Assembly (NCBI GenBank): GCA_938016515.1
Contig: CALILP010000214.1
Location: 1 to 37,105 of the forward strand
Direction: 5' to 3'
Length of the DNA: 37,105 nt
From: an uncultured Paracoccaceae bacterium
GTDB lineage: Bacteria; Pseudomonadota; Alphaproteobacteria; Rhodobacterales; Rhodobacteraceae
This document shows, one piece after another, positions 7,056-22,206 of this stretch (position 1 is its first letter; every line of letters begins with the position of its first letter). Below the pieces are notes generated by a model. That model did not search any database, was not told the DNA's origin, and worked only from the letters and a program-made list of their open reading frames with translations. A program made the translations under genes and the position numbers.

Positions 7056-7103
7056 TTGGGGGCCAGCCCCCAAACCCCCGAAGGTATTTAGGACCAAAAG
7101 AAG
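7056..7103 (-). repeat. Dispersed gene-end repeat, copy 1 (after purD)
   Basis: Read on the minus strand it starts CTTCTTTTGG directly after the purD stop, continues with a CGGGGGTTT stretch and ends in the hairpin GGGGGC-TG-GCCCCC (7058-7071). It shares this order with copies at 9981, 14101 and 22089. A further minus-strand inverted repeat of GATTTTTC / GAAAATC (about 7000-7017) resembles, loosely, the AT-rich box of the longer copies. Confidence 0.8.
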
Positions 7104-12381: not shown

Positions 12382-14097
12382 ATGTCATTTTTCAAGAAAC
12401 TCAAAGACCGGATGTTCAAATCCTCGTCTAAGATTGACGAGGGGCTGGATGCGATCGTCAGCGATGGCGGCGAAGAAGAAACGGTTGAGGTGGATACGGC
12501 TGCCCAAGAAGCGGAACGCCTGAGGGTTGCGGAACAAGAGCGCCTTGCTGTTGAGGCGGCCGCCGCGGAAGCGGCCGCAGCGGAGGAGCGCGCGCGCCAA
12601 GCCGCAATGGACCGTGCCGCCGAAGACGCCCGCCTTGCTGAAGAGGCCGCTGCTGCGGCCGAGCGCGACAGACGAGCCGCAGAAGATGCAGCCCGCCGCG
12701 AGGCACAAGCGGCTGCCGCCGAGTCTGCCCGTCAAAAGGCTGCAGCAGATGCCCGCGCCGCAGATGAGGCGCGCTTGCTGGCTGAGAAAGACGCCGCAGA
12801 GGCCGCCGACGCGGAACGTGCCGCTGCTGCAGCGCACGCAACTGCGGCTGCGGAACAGGCACGGCTGGAAGCTGAAAAAGCGGCGGCTGCAGAGCAGGCG
12901 GCACTGGCCGAGGCCGTGCGTTTGGCTGAAGAGGCCCGGTTGGCCGAAGAGACCCGTCTTGCCGACGAGGCCAAGCAAGCAGAAACTGCTCGGATTGCGC
13001 AAGACGTGGCCGCCCGGCAGGCCGAACAGTTGGCGCAAGAAGAGGCCGTGCGCGCCGCTGCGCAAATGGCAGAAGATGCCGCCGCCGCAGAAGCCGCAGC
13101 AGCATTGCAAGAGATCGAAGATACGCGGCCTGCGCCGCAAAGTGTGATCCAACCGTTAACGACATTGACGCCCTCGGCGCTGGACGTCGCCGATACTGAA
13201 GAAGAGCCGCAGAAACGGGGCCTTATGGGTCGTATTTTCGGTCGTGAAAAGAAAACGGTAGTCCGGCGGACGCTTGATGACGACATGCTCGAACAGCTCG
13301 AAGAGCTGCTGATCACGGCTGACATGGGGGTGGATACGGCACTCAGGGTGACGGCCAATATGGCGGAAGGTCGGATCGGCAAGAAGTTGTCTGTGGCCGA
13401 AATCAAAGATCTGATGGCACAAGAAGTGGCCCGGATCATGGACCCGGTCGCGCGTCCGATGCCGCTTTATACCCATAAACCACAGGTCGTGTTGGTTGTT
13501 GGGGTCAACGGATCCGGGAAAACCACAACCATCGGCAAATTGGCCAGCCAGTTCAAAGCGGCGGGCAAATCGGTGGTGATCGCGGCAGGTGACACGTTCC
13601 GGGCGGCAGCAGTAGAACAATTGCAGGTCTGGGGGGACCGGGCTGGCGTGCCGGTGCTGACAGCCCCGGAAGGCAGTGACCCGGCCAGCCTCGCGTTTGA
13701 TGCAATGACGCAGGCCCAGGCGGATGGGGCAGATCTCTTGATGATCGATACGGCGGGCCGGTTGCAAAACCGAGCGGATCTGATGGAAGAACTGGCTAAA
13801 ATCGTACGGGTCATCCGTAAAAAAGACCCCGACGCGCCACATAACACACTGCTGGTTCTTGACGCGACGACGGGTCAGAACGCGGTCCAGCAAGTCAAGG
13901 TTTTTCAAGAGCTTGCGGATGTCTCTGGTCTGGTGATGACCAAACTGGACGGCACTGCAAAGGGGGGTGTGCTGGTAGCACTTGCAGATCAATTCGGCCT
14001 GCCGATCCACGCCATCGGTGTGGGAGAACAAATCGACGATTTGGCGCCCTTCGACCCGGAAGAATTCGCTCAGGCGTTGGTGGGGATCGAGACGTGA
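12382..14097 (+). CDS. ftsY: Signal recognition particle receptor FtsY
   Basis: A 571-residue SRP receptor. After a basic N-terminal helix (MSFFKKLKDRMFK) comes a very Ala/Glu/Arg-rich, probably coiled-coil A domain of roughly 220 residues. The NG GTPase domain occupies the C-terminal half: G1 GVNGSGKTTTIGKL, DTFRAAAVEQL, G3 DTAGR and G4 TKLDGTAKGG. FtsY docks ribosome-SRP complexes at the inner membrane. ATG 12382 gives the conserved N-terminus; the track's extension to 12349 is unlikely. The A domain is longer than in many homologues, and its GC-rich repetitive codons create many long false ORFs on other frames. It is followed by a dispersed repeat, then an EamA transporter. Confidence 0.97.
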   Translation: MSFFKKLKDRMFKSSSKIDEGLDAIVSDGGEEETVEVDTAAQEAERLRVAEQERLAVEAAAAEAAAAEERARQAAMDRAAEDARLAEEAAAAAERDRRAAEDAARREAQAAAAESARQKAAADARAADEARLLAEKDAAEAADAERAAAAAHATAAAEQARLEAEKAAAAEQAALAEAVRLAEEARLAEETRLADEAKQAETARIAQDVAARQAEQLAQEEAVRAAAQMAEDAAAAEAAAALQEIEDTRPAPQSVIQPLTTLTPSALDVADTEEEPQKRGLMGRIFGREKKTVVRRTLDDDMLEQLEELLITADMGVDTALRVTANMAEGRIGKKLSVAEIKDLMAQEVARIMDPVARPMPLYTHKPQVVLVVGVNGSGKTTTIGKLASQFKAAGKSVVIAAGDTFRAAAVEQLQVWGDRAGVPVLTAPEGSDPASLAFDAMTQAQADGADLLMIDTAGRLQNRADLMEELAKIVRVIRKKDPDAPHNTLLVLDATTGQNAVQQVKVFQELADVSGLVMTKLDGTAKGGVLVALADQFGLPIHAIGVGEQIDDLAPFDPEEFAQALVGIET

Positions 14098-14100
14098 GGG

Positions 14101-14200
14101 CTTCTTTGTTTATCTCTATATCCCGGAGGGAGGCGCAAGCCGGGGGGCTGGCCCCCCAACCACCGGCAGCGTCTGATCCGAATCTTCCAGAAAATTCACC
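14101..14200 (+). repeat. Dispersed gene-end repeat, copy 3 (after ftsY), long form
   Basis: It starts CTTCTTTGTTTATC three bases after the ftsY stop, continues TATATCCCGGAGG, has the hairpin GGGGGGC-TG-GCCCCCC (14142-14157) and ends with the box GAATCTTCCAGAAAATTC (14180-14197). The box is an imperfect inverted repeat and is identical to that at 22189-22206. It ends 12 bp before the EamA start codon. Confidence 0.85.
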
Positions 14201-16252: not shown

Positions 16253-16281
16253 TTGACGGCTTCATGGCACAGGCGTAGTGC
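16253..16281 (+). promoter_or_regulatory. Possible metZ promoter
   Basis: TTGACG at 16253-16258 and TAGTGC at 16276-16281 are spaced by 17 bp. Transcription would start around 16287, exactly where the SAM-II aptamer begins. The -35 is good, the -10 weak. Confidence 0.45.
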
Positions 16282-16286
16282 AGGTC

Positions 16287-16342
16287 TTGTGGCGATTTGT
16301 TACCGGATTGCGGGCCACGTTAAACATGCCGCTAAATAGGTG
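16287..16342 (+). promoter_or_regulatory. SAM-II riboswitch upstream of metZ
   Basis: The leader contains GTGGCGATTTGTTACCGG, TTGCGGGCCACGTTAAA and GCCGCTAAATAGG in order. P1 is GTGGC (16289-16293) with GCCAC (16314-16318), and the conserved GTTAAA and CGCTAAA segments follow as in the metA-type SAM-II aptamer with its H-type pseudoknot. SAM-II is found mainly in alphaproteobacteria upstream of metA, metX and metZ. Binding of S-adenosylmethionine is expected to reduce metZ expression. A terminator lies ten bases downstream, which fits transcription attenuation. Confidence 0.95.
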
Positions 16343-16351
16343 AGGGGATTG

Positions 16352-16384
16352 CCCCGATACCTTGCCCGGTGTCGGGGTTTTTTT
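16352..16384 (+). terminator. Terminator of the SAM-II riboswitch
   Basis: CCCCGATACC pairs with GGTGTCGGGG (one wobble) around a 6-base loop and is followed by seven T's, 34 bp before the metZ start. The 5' CCCC can instead pair with GGGG at 16344-16347, a possible antiterminator that would compete with this stem when SAM is absent. Confidence 0.92.
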
Positions 16385-16417: not shown

Positions 16418-17605
16418 ATGACCGACACATCCAAATGGTCCCGCCGCACCCAAGCCGTGCATGCTGGCATTCGCCGCAGCCAATACGGTGAGATATCAGA
16501 GGCGATCTATCTGACGCAGGCCTTCAGTTATCCCACCGCAGAGGCCGCAGAAGCCCGCTTTATCGACGCCCCGGATGATGAATTCATCTATGCCCGGTAT
16601 GGCAACCCAACCTTGGCGATGTTTGAAGACCGGATGGCAGCGCTTGAAGGGGCCGAGGCAGGCTTTGCCTGTGCCTCTGGCATGGCGGCGGTGAATGGTG
16701 CGTTGATGGCGATGGTCAAAGCCGGCGATCATATCGTGTCCTCGCGGGCCTTGTTTGGGTCTTGCTTATACATTCTGGAAGATATCCTGCAGCGCTTTGG
16801 CGTGGAGGTCACCCTTGTGGACGGCCGTGATCTGAATGCCTGGCAGACTGCGATCCGGCCTGACACAAAGATGGTGTTTCTCGAAAGTATCTCAAACCCG
16901 GTTTTGGAAGTCATCGATCTGAAAGCAGTGTCCGAGATGGCTCATGCAGTTGGCGCATTGGTTGTGGTGGACAACGTCTTTGCGACCCCGACCTATTCCT
17001 ACGCCTTGGCATGTGGGGCCGACTTGGTTGTTTATTCAACAACGAAACACGTCGACGGGCAGGGCCGTTGCCTTGGCGGGGTCATCCTTGGACCCAAGGA
17101 AATCGTGCGCGGTCCGGTAGAAGCTTACATGAAGCACACAGGGGGTGCCATGTCGCCCTTCACGGCCTGGGTCATGCTCAAGTCGCTCGACACGCTGGAT
17201 TTGCGGGTCAACGCGCAATGCGACACGGCTGAGGTTCTGGCGGCAGCCCTGTCCGATCATCCCAAGCTTGAGAAGGTGATTTACCCGGGCCATCCGTCAC
17301 ACCCCCAATACAGCCTATCAAAACGCCAATGTGAACGGGGCGGGACGGTTCTGGCGATTGAGGTCAAGGGCGGCAAGGCAGCCACATTTCGGTTCTTGAA
17401 CGCCTTGGAAATCTTCACGATTTCCAACAACTTTGCAGACAGCAAATCAATCGTCACGCATCCGGCGACGACAACGCACCAAAGGCTTAGCGTCGAAAAG
17501 CGGGCAGAGTTGGGGATCAGTGACGGTATCGTGCGCGTGTCGTGTGGTTTGGAAGATGCCAGTGATTTGCTGTCTGATCTGACGATGGCCCTTGATGCGG
17601 TGTAA
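16418..17605 (+). CDS. metZ: O-succinylhomoserine sulfhydrylase
   Basis: A 395-residue PLP enzyme of the Cys/Met metabolism family. The PLP lysine is Lys210 in YSTTKHVDGQGR; other family marks are YARYGNPT, EGAEAGFACASGMAAVN, and the C-terminal ATTTHQRLS...GISDGIVRVSCGLED. MetZ makes homocysteine directly from O-succinylhomoserine and sulfide. The family also contains O-acetylhomoserine sulfhydrylase and cystathionine synthases, so acyl specificity is by closest resemblance. A methionine role is confirmed by the SAM-II riboswitch and terminator in the leader. The start is ATG 16418; no strong ribosome-binding site is visible. Length is typical. Confidence 0.94.
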   Translation: MTDTSKWSRRTQAVHAGIRRSQYGEISEAIYLTQAFSYPTAEAAEARFIDAPDDEFIYARYGNPTLAMFEDRMAALEGAEAGFACASGMAAVNGALMAMVKAGDHIVSSRALFGSCLYILEDILQRFGVEVTLVDGRDLNAWQTAIRPDTKMVFLESISNPVLEVIDLKAVSEMAHAVGALVVVDNVFATPTYSYALACGADLVVYSTTKHVDGQGRCLGGVILGPKEIVRGPVEAYMKHTGGAMSPFTAWVMLKSLDTLDLRVNAQCDTAEVLAAALSDHPKLEKVIYPGHPSHPQYSLSKRQCERGGTVLAIEVKGGKAATFRFLNALEIFTISNNFADSKSIVTHPATTTHQRLSVEKRAELGISDGIVRVSCGLEDASDLLSDLTMALDAV

Positions 17606-17806
17606 GTGCTGACAGATGGCATTGTGTCGAAAATGACAGGGACAGCAGCCTGCCGCGTGTTATAGTTACGAAAGTGTAAACGCGGCGGGGCCCTTGTAAT
17701 GACTGACGAAAAAGGTGGCTTGCAGCGGTTTGTCGACCATGTGAGTGGAAAACTGTCACAATCCCCCCATATTGTTTCGCAGACGACGCAGCCAGGAGAT
17801 GCAGCG

Positions 17807-18910
17807 ATGAATATCCACTCACGCGACATGGACAGGGATCCATCCCGCGCCGAGGCTGAGGCAGCCCTTGCCTTGCTGCGGCGCTGGGCGGGGGATGTGA
17901 CACCAGAAGAGGTCGCAACCCTTGATCCGCTTGTGGCGCGATTGATTCCGGGGCAAGAGGTCAGCAATTATCCTGCTTTGGCGCGTGCCTACCCTGAAGA
18001 ATTTGCGGTAGATGATGCCTACAAAGCCAGCATGCCGGATTTGCAAAACGGGCCGTCCTCGCTGATCCGCGGTGCGAAACAGCAGATTCAACACGTCGGG
18101 ATTTCCAACTTCCGCCTGCCGATCCGGTTTCGGACGCGGGACAATGGAGACTTGACGCTTGAGACCTCGGTGACAGGGACTGTGTCTTTGGATGCCGAAA
18201 AGAAGGGCATAAACATGTCCCGGATCATGCGGACATTTTATAAGCACGCTGAAGAAACCTTCAGCTTCGAGGTGATCGAAAAGGCACTGGACGCTTACAA
18301 AACAGATCTCGAAAGCTTTGACGCCCGCATTCAGATGCGACTGTCTTTCCCGATCAAAGTTGACAGCCTGCGGTCTGGTCTGTCGGGGTACCAATATTAT
18401 GACATCGCGCTCGAGCTGGTGGAACAAGACGGGGTGCGCAAGAAAATCGTGCACTTCGACTATGTCTATTCCTCTACATGCCCGTGCTCGCTGGAACTGT
18501 CGGAACACGCCCGCCAGTTCCGGGGGCAACTGGCGACGCCGCATTCGCAACGGTCTGTGGCACGGATGTCTGTACACCTGGAAGAAGGGCAGGGCATCTT
18601 GTGGTTCGAGGACCTTGTCGATATGGCGCGCACCGCTGTGCCCACGGAAACGCAGGTGATGGTCAAGCGAGAGGACGAACAGGCCTTCGCAGAACTCAAC
18701 GCAGCCAACCCGATCTTTGTTGAAGATGCTGCCCGTCTTTTCTGCGAACAGCTGTTGAAAGAGCCGCGCGTTGGCGACTTTCGGGTCATCGCCAGCCATC
18801 AGGAAAGCCTGCACAGCCATGATGCGGTGTCGGTCCTGACGGAAGGCGAAACCTTTGCGAGCGAAAGCATTGATCCCAGACTTTTCAGTACGTTATTTCA
18901 CGTCGGGTGA
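17807..18910 (+). CDS. folE2: GTP cyclohydrolase FolE2 (type IB)
   Basis: A 367-residue FolE2 (COG1469). It converts GTP to dihydroneopterin triphosphate, the first step of folate synthesis. Residues about 75 onward match the family: ISNFRLPIRFRTRDN, SRIMRTFYKHAEE, FDYVYSSTCPCSLELSEHAR with Cys225 and Cys227, and the C-terminal RVIASHQESLHSHDAV. The N-terminal 70 residues are an extension relative to short FolE2 proteins. The track starts at 17699, but AGGAG lies eight bases before ATG 17807. FolE2 can use metals other than zinc, and in many bacteria is induced by zinc shortage through Zur; I see no convincing Zur box in the 201-bp upstream gap. folB and folP lie 12.5 kb downstream. Confidence 0.94.
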   Translation: MNIHSRDMDRDPSRAEAEAALALLRRWAGDVTPEEVATLDPLVARLIPGQEVSNYPALARAYPEEFAVDDAYKASMPDLQNGPSSLIRGAKQQIQHVGISNFRLPIRFRTRDNGDLTLETSVTGTVSLDAEKKGINMSRIMRTFYKHAEETFSFEVIEKALDAYKTDLESFDARIQMRLSFPIKVDSLRSGLSGYQYYDIALELVEQDGVRKKIVHFDYVYSSTCPCSLELSEHARQFRGQLATPHSQRSVARMSVHLEEGQGILWFEDLVDMARTAVPTETQVMVKREDEQAFAELNAANPIFVEDAARLFCEQLLKEPRVGDFRVIASHQESLHSHDAVSVLTEGETFASESIDPRLFSTLFHVG

Positions 18911-18968
18911 GGCCAAACAAAATTTGTCCCAAATTTTGGTGGCAAAATCTCTAAGAGATTTTGTGGCC
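18911..18968. repeat. Three-stem palindromic element after folE2
   Basis: Starting on the base after the folE2 stop: outer stem GGCCA (18911-18915) with TGGCC (18964-18968); first inner hairpin CAAAATTTG-TCC-CAAATTTTG (18918-18938); second inner hairpin CAAAATCTC-TAA-GAGATTTTG (18943-18963). All three stems are perfect. There is no T run, so it is not a standard terminator. It probably folds as a three-way junction in RNA or single-stranded DNA. It is AT-rich in a GC-rich setting. Confidence 0.9.
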
Positions 18969-19023
18969 GCGTCACGCAGCACAGCGGCTTGACACCCCAC
19001 GGGCCACAGGCCAACCCTGCGGC

Positions 19024-20472
19024 ATGATCGACTTGCGCCCTATCGGATATGTAATTGGCCTGCTTGTGGCCTCGCTTGGGGCGACAATGTTAGTGCCGTT
19101 GGTGTTGGACCTGGTGGACGACAACGGGCATTGGCCGGGCTTTCTGGAAAGTGCTGTCATCACCATTCTGACCGGTGGTCTGGTTGCATTGGCCTGCGCG
19201 AATGGTGTGTCTCAACGCCTAAGCCTGCGCCAAACCTTTCTACTGACCACAATGGTCTGGATCATGTTGCCGATCTTCGGCGCACTCCCGTTTGTATTCG
19301 GGGAAACCAAAGCACCCTTTACCGACGCGTTTTTCGAGGCGATGTCGGGTCTGACCACCACAGGTTCCACGGTCTTTACCGGACTGGATGATTTACCCCG
19401 TAGCCTTTTGTTGTGGCGCGCAACCCTGCAGTGGCTTGGAGGCATTGGGATCATCGTTGTCGCGATGGTGTTCTTGCCGGAATTGCGGGTTGGGGGCATG
19501 CAAATCTTCCGATCCGAGGGCTTCGATACGATGGGAAAAATCCTGCCGCGGGCTGCAGAGATTTCCAGCTCTATCTCGATCATCTATTTCAGCCTGACGA
19601 TTGCCTGCGCCTTTGCCTATGCCGCAACAGGGATGGACCGTTTCGATTCCATCGTGCATGCGATGACAACGGTCTCGACAGGGGGCATGGCCACCAGCGA
19701 TCGCTCATTTATCGACATGTCGGCCGCTGCCCACTATGTGGCGGTTGTCTTCATGATCCTCGCGGCACTGCCTTTTGTACGCTTCGTTCAAATCCTCGCA
19801 GGCTCTGCGCAACCCTTGTGGACCGATCCACAGGTGAGGGGCCTGATGACTGTCATCACAGTTTGCGTTCTGCTGATCACATCGTGGGTCTGGGGACGCG
19901 AAGCAGTTCTGTCCGAGGTTGCCTTCCGCGAGGCCTTGTTCAACGTGACCTCGATCATGACCGGGACCGGTTATGCCAACGCCGACTACATGACGTGGGG
20001 GACCTTCCCGGTCGTCATGTTCTTTTTCATCGGCCTTGTGGGGGGATGCGCGGGATCGACCTCCTGTTCGGTCAAGATATTTCGATACCAACTGCTTTTT
20101 GCCTCCGTCAAAAGCCAGATCCGGCAGATCCACTCGCCCCATGGGGTCTTTACGCCGCGCTATGACGGCAAACCGGTCAGTGACGACGTCCTGAATTCGG
20201 TGATGGCCTTCTTTGTGGCCTTTGTCTTGCTGGTGGGGTTTGTGGCAGTGCTTTTGGGCATGACCGGCCTCGACTTTATCACCTCCGTTTCCGGGGCGGC
20301 CACGGCAGTGGCCAATATCGGACCGGGGCTGGGCACCGAGATTGGACCCACCGGCAGCTTCGCGGGGCTCAATGACCCAGCCAAATGGATCCTGTCCATC
20401 GCGATGTTCGTTGGCCGGTTGGAAATCATGGTTGTCCTGACCATCCTGACCTTCAAATTCTGGAGAGCCTAA
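19024..20472 (+). CDS. trkH: TrkH family potassium uptake protein
   Basis: A 482-residue ion-channel-like membrane protein with the four pore repeats of the Trk/Ktr/HKT superfamily. The selectivity segments are SGLTTTGSTVF, TTVSTGGMATS, SIMTGTGYANA and VANIGPGLG, each with the key glycine. TrkH takes up K+ together with the NAD-binding gating protein TrkA, which is not in this window. ATG 19024 (MIDLRPIGYVIGLLV) fits the family N-terminus; the track's earlier start would run into the palindromic element. No good ribosome-binding site is seen. Its TAA shares one base with the ATG of the next gene (TAATG), so the two are translationally coupled though functionally unrelated on present knowledge. 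Confidence 0.95.
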   Translation: MIDLRPIGYVIGLLVASLGATMLVPLVLDLVDDNGHWPGFLESAVITILTGGLVALACANGVSQRLSLRQTFLLTTMVWIMLPIFGALPFVFGETKAPFTDAFFEAMSGLTTTGSTVFTGLDDLPRSLLLWRATLQWLGGIGIIVVAMVFLPELRVGGMQIFRSEGFDTMGKILPRAAEISSSISIIYFSLTIACAFAYAATGMDRFDSIVHAMTTVSTGGMATSDRSFIDMSAAAHYVAVVFMILAALPFVRFVQILAGSAQPLWTDPQVRGLMTVITVCVLLITSWVWGREAVLSEVAFREALFNVTSIMTGTGYANADYMTWGTFPVVMFFFIGLVGGCAGSTSCSVKIFRYQLLFASVKSQIRQIHSPHGVFTPRYDGKPVSDDVLNSVMAFFVAFVLLVGFVAVLLGMTGLDFITSVSGAATAVANIGPGLGTEIGPTGSFAGLNDPAKWILSIAMFVGRLEIMVVLTILTFKFWRA

Positions 20473-22061: not shown

Positions 22062-22088
22062 CGCCAGACAGGATCGCAGACCAAAGGA

Positions 22089-22206
22089 CTTCTTTGTTTC
22101 TTTCTATATCCCGGGGGGAGACGCAGTTGGGGGGCTGGCCCCCTTTGCACGCTCAACTCTTACGCACAGACGTCCGCGACCATACCCCGAATCTTCCAGA
22201 AAATTC
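22089..22206 (+). repeat. Dispersed gene-end repeat, copy 4 (after the ThDP enzyme), long form
   Basis: It starts CTTCTTTGTTTC 27 bp after the ThDP-enzyme stop, continues TATATCCCGGGGGG, has the hairpin GGGGGC-TG-GCCCCC (22130-22143) and ends with GAATCTTCCAGAAAATTC (22189-22206), three bases from the stop of the convergent gene. About 45 bp between hairpin and box are not shared with copy 3. Confidence 0.85.

Follow-up and report, generated by a model that had tools for sequence, protein, structure and literature searches.

A pair of small, perfect hairpins directly downstream of folE2 in an uncultured Paracoccaceae bacterium belongs to an apparently undescribed repeat family of tandem small hairpins. 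Members of this family share a fixed architecture, keep their base pairing while their stem sequences vary, lie at the 3' ends of genes, and are conserved at their sites. Our best reading is that they form a new REP-like family of U-tract-free, bidirectional mRNA 3'-end hairpins, which would act in transcript termination or protection.

The window, the whole stretch of DNA that was analyzed, comprises 37,105 nucleotides (contig CALILP010000214.1). The features around folE2 are as follows:

17699-18910, plus strand: folE2, encoding the type I GTP cyclohydrolase FolE2 (PF02649); stop codon TGA at 18908-18910
18911-18915, no strand assigned: GGCCA, left half of the outer stem proposed in the initial annotation; incidental, outside the family features
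18918-18938, no strand assigned: hairpin 1, a perfect 9-bp stem CAAAATTTG/CAAATTTTG with loop TCC
18939-18942, no strand assigned: spacer GTGG between hairpins 1 and 2
18943-18963, no strand assigned: hairpin 2, a perfect 9-bp stem CAAAATCTC/GAGATTTTG with loop TAA
18964-18968, no strand assigned: TGGCC, right half of the same outer stem; incidental, outside the family features
18989-18994, plus strand: TTGACA, possible -35 box, upstream of the trkH-like gene
19024-20472, plus strand: TrkH-type cation transporter gene (PF02386), downstream and co-directional

Starting directly 3' of the folE2 TGA, positions 18911-18968 read GGCCA, AA, CAAAATTTGTCCCAAATTTTG, GTGG, CAAAATCTCTAAGAGATTTTG, and TGGCC. 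The two perfect 9-bp hairpins and the 5-bp GGCCA/TGGCC match reported in the initial annotation are both present next to the stop codon, and no T run follows the element, as was also reported. Each hairpin is 21 nt long (9 bp with a 3-nt loop), the two are separated by 4 nt, and the first begins 7 nt past the stop codon. When folded as RNA, the element has a z-score of -3.8, and none of 200 shuffled sequences was equally stable. No other hairpin with a 9-bp stem and a 3-nt loop occurs anywhere in the 37-kb window. In 60 first-order simulations of the window sequence, such hairpins numbered 0.25 per simulation, and tandem pairs never arose. The double hairpin is therefore real, and a chance origin is excluded.

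The outer stem had been drawn as closing a three-way junction, or cloverleaf, and this design did not hold up. The minimum-energy fold of the folE2 element does not use the outer stem in that way, and many other copies in the family consist of three hairpins in a row. Outer stems of at least 5 bp occur in 26 of 166 copies, compared with 29 when the flank partners are reshuffled. Because outer stems occur at chance frequency across the family, we regard the folE2 closing stem, and with it the three-way junction, as incidental.

The TTGACA at 18989-18994, judged by its sequence, is a possible promoter -35 box of the trkH-like gene, in which case the element would sit between the end of folE2 and the trkH promoter. 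The same hexamer is found in L095-L097, relatives that lack the element. The element was found at the folE2 junction in 0 of the 29 relatives examined. In several of them, a different, unrelated hairpin without a T run, such as GTAAGGTGGGTC..GACCCACCTTAC, occupies the same place after folE2. A further T-run-less hairpin repeat, GTAAGRTGGGT..ACCCAYCTTAC, stands directly past stop codons in relatives, including after folE2 in L102, L103, L109, L113, L119, L120, and L123 and at G015:C4:4741-4766 and 89044-89069; its start resembles that of GTAG REPs.

Elsewhere in the window, a SAM_alpha riboswitch (RF00521, 58.8 bits, 16279-16356) precedes a gene for a PLP enzyme of Cys/Met metabolism (16418-17605), which is a known arrangement. 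A second repeat family, CTTTGTTT..TATATCCCGG..GGGGGCTGGCCCCC followed by CCGAATCTTCCAGAAAATTC, occupies intergenic positions 14090-14165 and 22078-22143, and the related GGGGGCCAGCCCCCAAACCCCCG is also found at 7057 and 9981. This is probably what the initial annotation called the other repeat family.

A plain DNA search of the genome with the folE2 element returned 14 further weak matches, most of which were arrays of perfect 21-nt hairpins that start with CA, end with TG, and have site-specific stem sequences. We built a covariance model (R1) from 13 hairpin pairs, using both orientations. The covariance-model search, which the initial annotation had recommended, revealed copies elsewhere that covary, rather than a unique occurrence without covariation. 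At least ~36 R1 sites were detected in the window's genome and ~30 in each of two relatives; these copy numbers come from searches in which at most 150 candidates were scored and may be low. At an E value of 0.001, R1 was found in 25 of 49 genomes from the genus (counting the genome of the window) and in 0 of 32 genomes from other families of the same class. Across Rhodobacteraceae, 40 of 298 genomes carried it at an E value of 1e-4 with strict filters. An exact pattern for one arrangement had matches in genomes of Litoreibacter, Yoonia, Loktanella, Pseudooctadecabacter, Octadecabacter, Ruegeria, and Anianabacter. Rfam 15 covariance models at gathering score matched neither the element in the window nor 20 carrier loci, and we found no description of the family in Rhodobacterales in the open-access literature. 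The window's genome also contains single 20-nt palindromes, CAAATTTTCYAGAAAATTTG (L071 1866-1885, L075 4605-4624, L081 1960-1979, L083 1946-1965, and L085 1948-1967), which by their sequence are perhaps one-hairpin relatives of the family.

The anatomy of the unit was determined from 155 distinct copies with 372 hairpins; both the search pattern and the CA..TG detection rule introduce some bias into this sample. The unit measures 21 nt in 337 of the 372 hairpins, and the spacer, free to vary in sequence, is 4 nt in 177 of 217 cases, giving a period of ~25 nt. Two hairpins are present in 93 copies and three in 62. Each half-stem consists of CARWNYYT plus a ninth pair (CARWNYYT…ARRNWYTG for the hairpin); the outermost pair is an invariant C-G, and the stems are AT-rich. 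Three-hairpin copies nearly always follow the order CAGACTTT - CAAATCCT - CAATTYCT, or its reverse. This fixed order and the preferred stem sequences suggest sequence recognition beyond folding. Identical stems are never neighbors (0 of 217, with 38 expected and a minimum of 23 across 2,000 shuffles), to which the fixed three-hairpin order contributes.

Covariation was assessed in 148 model-aligned rows, in which most copies appear on both strands and the alignment leans towards structure. All 18 pairs vary on both sides, with 601 double-changed cells. Pairing is kept in 99.6% of cells, and G·U accounts for only 3 of 2,662. When the partner is slid by one column, pairing falls to 54-60%. Half-stems change together, never separately. 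An uptake-type short word or a single operator was rejected as an identity for the element, as stem sequences vary widely while pairing is kept. The symmetric change of half-stems, the absence of identical neighbors, and the free loops indicate that selection acts on the self-pairing of one strand. A lack of identical neighbors is expected if mispairing must be avoided, and the scarcity of G·U would be accounted for if both strands have to pair.

To measure conservation at fixed places, we compared the sister species G015 and G087, which are ~93% identical and have nearly all element sites in common. Across 26 orthologous pairs, stems changed at 3 of 1,150 positions (0.3%), compared with 32 of 196 loop and 23 of 143 spacer positions. 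Loops and spacers together changed by 16%, and the 150 bp around the element by 7.5%. Stems are thus ~50-fold more conserved than loops (Fisher P about 2e-33), in a test that slightly favors intact copies, as only recognized hairpins were counted. Stems this well preserved at constant sites speak for a host function. Each of the three stem changes disrupts a pair in one of the species and none is compensatory; therefore, the compensatory diversity lies mainly between sites. At one site followed across four species (L250, L270, L276, and L279), the two hairpins are kept and the second stem has changed. At another junction, three species (L233, L271, and L274) have different two-hairpin arrays, one of which is GA..TC rather than CA..TG, and a fourth (L277) has no element and almost no gap between the genes.

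The copies cluster at gene ends. Gene context, which is approximate because it relies on home-made gene calls, places the element start at a median of 5 nt past the stop codon. The surrounding genes are arranged in tandem in 31 cases, convergently in 28, and divergently in 2; between some convergent pairs, the element fills the entire gap of 47-48 bp from stop to stop. A T run (at least 4 T in 8) accompanies only 4 of 87 gene-end sides. Canonical intrinsic terminators were rejected as an identity for the element: the T run is lacking, the stems are AT-rich, and the element lies outside the terminator-like sites of the window. Among 14 co-directional copies with a CAGACTTT hairpin, this hairpin is last in 10 and first in 4, and the orientation preference of copies is at most weak. 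The first ~10-15 nt outside the arrays have, on both sides, a C content of ~0.40 and an A content of 0.11-0.16 before returning to background (162 copies). This C-rich, A-poor flank could be a weak hint at Rho.

The same position is occupied by other hairpins. In 140 aligned kb, every perfect non-coding hairpin of at least 8 bp is close to a stop codon irrespective of sequence, and none is found at the 25 divergent gene pairs. Stems outside the tandem class changed at only 1 of 228 positions. Perfect hairpins, almost all T-run-less, occur at 13 gene junctions, compared with 5 junctions that have T-tailed terminators, and canonical T-tailed terminators look scarce here. We found no paper on roseobacter transcript ends in the open-access literature.

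The location past stop codons, which other U-less hairpins have as well, suggests a link with mRNA 3' ends. From the sequence evidence, we give about even chances to the explanation that the element is a bidirectional, U-tract-free mRNA 3'-end signal, and we rank it above a function at the DNA level and above a purely mobile element. The active form would be RNA, and the outcome would be 3'-end formation or protection. The transcribed hairpins would fold at the mRNA 3' end and would end the transcript, either through U-tract-free termination, possibly with Rho, or as a stop for 3'-to-5' exonucleases. An element could serve a single gene or, where two genes converge, both of them; the folE2 copy would set the folE2 transcript apart from the promoter region of trkH. 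Several observations count against a 3'-end signal. The missing T run does so for a canonical intrinsic terminator. G·U pairs are also missing at co-directional genes, where one strand should suffice; the only two orientable non-Watson-Crick pairs there are both G·U in the sense strand, a number too small to be decisive. The L233 copy lies between genes that nearly overlap in the relative L277, so copies may sit inside operons. Finally, the fixed order and preferred stem sequences of three-hairpin copies point to recognition of sequence in addition to folding.

A clearly less probable, though credible, alternative is that the repeat functions as DNA, with a nucleoid, topology, or replication protein binding a hairpin, a cruciform, or an array of palindromic sites, which would be placed at gene ends because supercoils accumulate there. 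Binding of gyrase or IHF has been reported for BIMEs. Strict Watson-Crick pairing with almost no G·U, little or no orientation preference, the location at gene ends, and a fixed period of ~25 bp with a fixed order of stem types would all suit such a role. However, neither independent half-sites nor a dimer site on double-stranded DNA would need half-stems to change symmetrically and never separately, and the exclusion of identical neighbors likewise speaks against it. Unrelated hairpins that replace the element at the same place imply that a specific DNA sequence is unneeded there.

We consider it unlikely that the family is chiefly a mobile or selfish REP- or MITE-like repeat that lands beside stop codons and has no host function. 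In favor of such a repeat, the element is absent at folE2 in 29 relatives, and an empty site in G027, compared with G087, has a 6-bp ACGCGG direct repeat at its ends; this site could also result from deletion between direct repeats. Within the window's genome, L062 1968-2038 and L066 606-676 are identical at 67 of 71 bp, spacers included, between unrelated flanks, and this hairpin array appears from its sequence to have been copied as one unit. In other copies of the same type, however, non-stem identity is little above chance, and a selfish repeat would not account for stems so much better conserved than loops at orthologous sites. No Y1 transposase tracks the carriers: Y1_Tnp matches occur in 11 of 57 genomes of the genus, mostly as fragments, and are absent from complete carriers such as G015, G027, G031, and G012. 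Contig ends in G013 and G023 carry many short Y1_Tnp-like fragments, which would suit an IS200/IS605-type element that has multiplied in these genomes. Of the mobility suggested in the initial annotation, limited evidence of dispersal remains, while most sites are common to and fixed between the two sister species. A single functionless palindrome, as the one copy in the window and the relatives without it at folE2 might have implied, has next to no probability left and is refuted by the ~36 sites in the same genome, the covarying copies across the genus and family, and the absence of tandem pairs from all 60 simulations.

The family has parallels among known systems. GeSTer describes bidirectional (X-shaped) and tandem (V-shaped) terminators without a U trail. 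Our elements resemble these in lying past stop codons and between convergent genes, in being tandem, and in lacking a T run. They differ in forming a repeat family with a degenerate stem code and a fixed unit length, period, and order, and in that termination is putative. Mitochondrial double-hairpin elements also consist of two perfect hairpins side by side whose stems show compensatory changes from copy to copy, but they are organellar and different in sequence, and an association with stop codons like that seen here is not known for them.

The initial annotation's comparison to REP-like elements and structured 3' UTRs was well founded, as the motif recurs at many gene 3' ends, varies strongly while keeping its pairs, and shows limited evidence of dispersal. 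Among described classes, REPs come closest. Under the broad REP definition (20-40 bp palindromes in many intergenic places), 21-nt palindromes at ~36 sites qualify. The copy number here is lower than the usual REP copy number of more than 100 given in PMC2817692. The family shares with GTAG REPs, BIMEs, and REPINs, which RAYT transposases mobilize, its dispersed extragenic palindromes at gene 3' ends, their occurrence in pairs, and stem variants that keep pairing. In contrast to those elements, it has far fewer copies, and its tandem arrays combine different hairpins where those elements repeat one REP in inverted orientation. The GTAG tag is absent, with GTAG at the outer edge of only 3 of 386 hairpins. 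G·U pairs are reported to be frequent in GTAG REPs (PMC3733652) and are nearly absent here. A RAYT-driven REP was rejected, as the GTAG tag is absent and there is no Y1/RAYT link.

CGTC REPs of alphaproteobacteria have 8-9 bp stems, 4-5 nt loops, and A-T pairs near the stem base (Di Nocera et al. 2013, PMC3733652), and they are often downstream of coding regions and have no dedicated transposase (PMC3733652). Our family is similar in its short palindromes, downstream position, and lack of a dedicated transposase and, if its outer C-G pair is disregarded, in A-T pairs near the stem base. The text of PMC3733652 names no Rhodobacter or Roseobacter species. The CGTC REP tag is no commoner than chance among our hairpins: CGTC, TGTC, and CCTC occur in 13, 12, and 8 of 386 hairpins, with ~12 each expected by chance over the two ends. 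The CCA tail is likewise absent: what follows the A-T pairs is always a G, paired with C, and the bases beyond it are free. The stem and loop format of CGTC REPs, with A-T pairs at the first and second stem positions, would fit only on disregarding the invariant outer C-G pair and counting the loop as 5; without that pair, the second stem position is A (252) or G (117). The invariant C-G outside the A-T pairs and the ordered tandem arrays of different stems also set our family apart. Distant kinship with CGTC REPs is possible, the two being distinguished here by text description rather than by the printed consensus. Because the defining tags and tail are absent, we do not file the family as a GTAG or CGTC REP, although it may work like one.

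A more specific and still more tentative proposal is that Rhodobacteraceae use, as a dedicated signal, an ordered array of different, strictly Watson-Crick hairpins with a common degenerate stem code (CARWNYYT), which is read by a putative hairpin-binding factor that ends or protects the transcripts of both strands with no need of a U tract. For an RNA motif, such strong covariation with hardly any G·U is unusual, and it makes the question of RNA or DNA directly testable. If the elements are indeed compact, conserved, bidirectional 3'-end signals, they would improve operon prediction, supply parts for engineering, and provide a natural test of U-tract-free termination.
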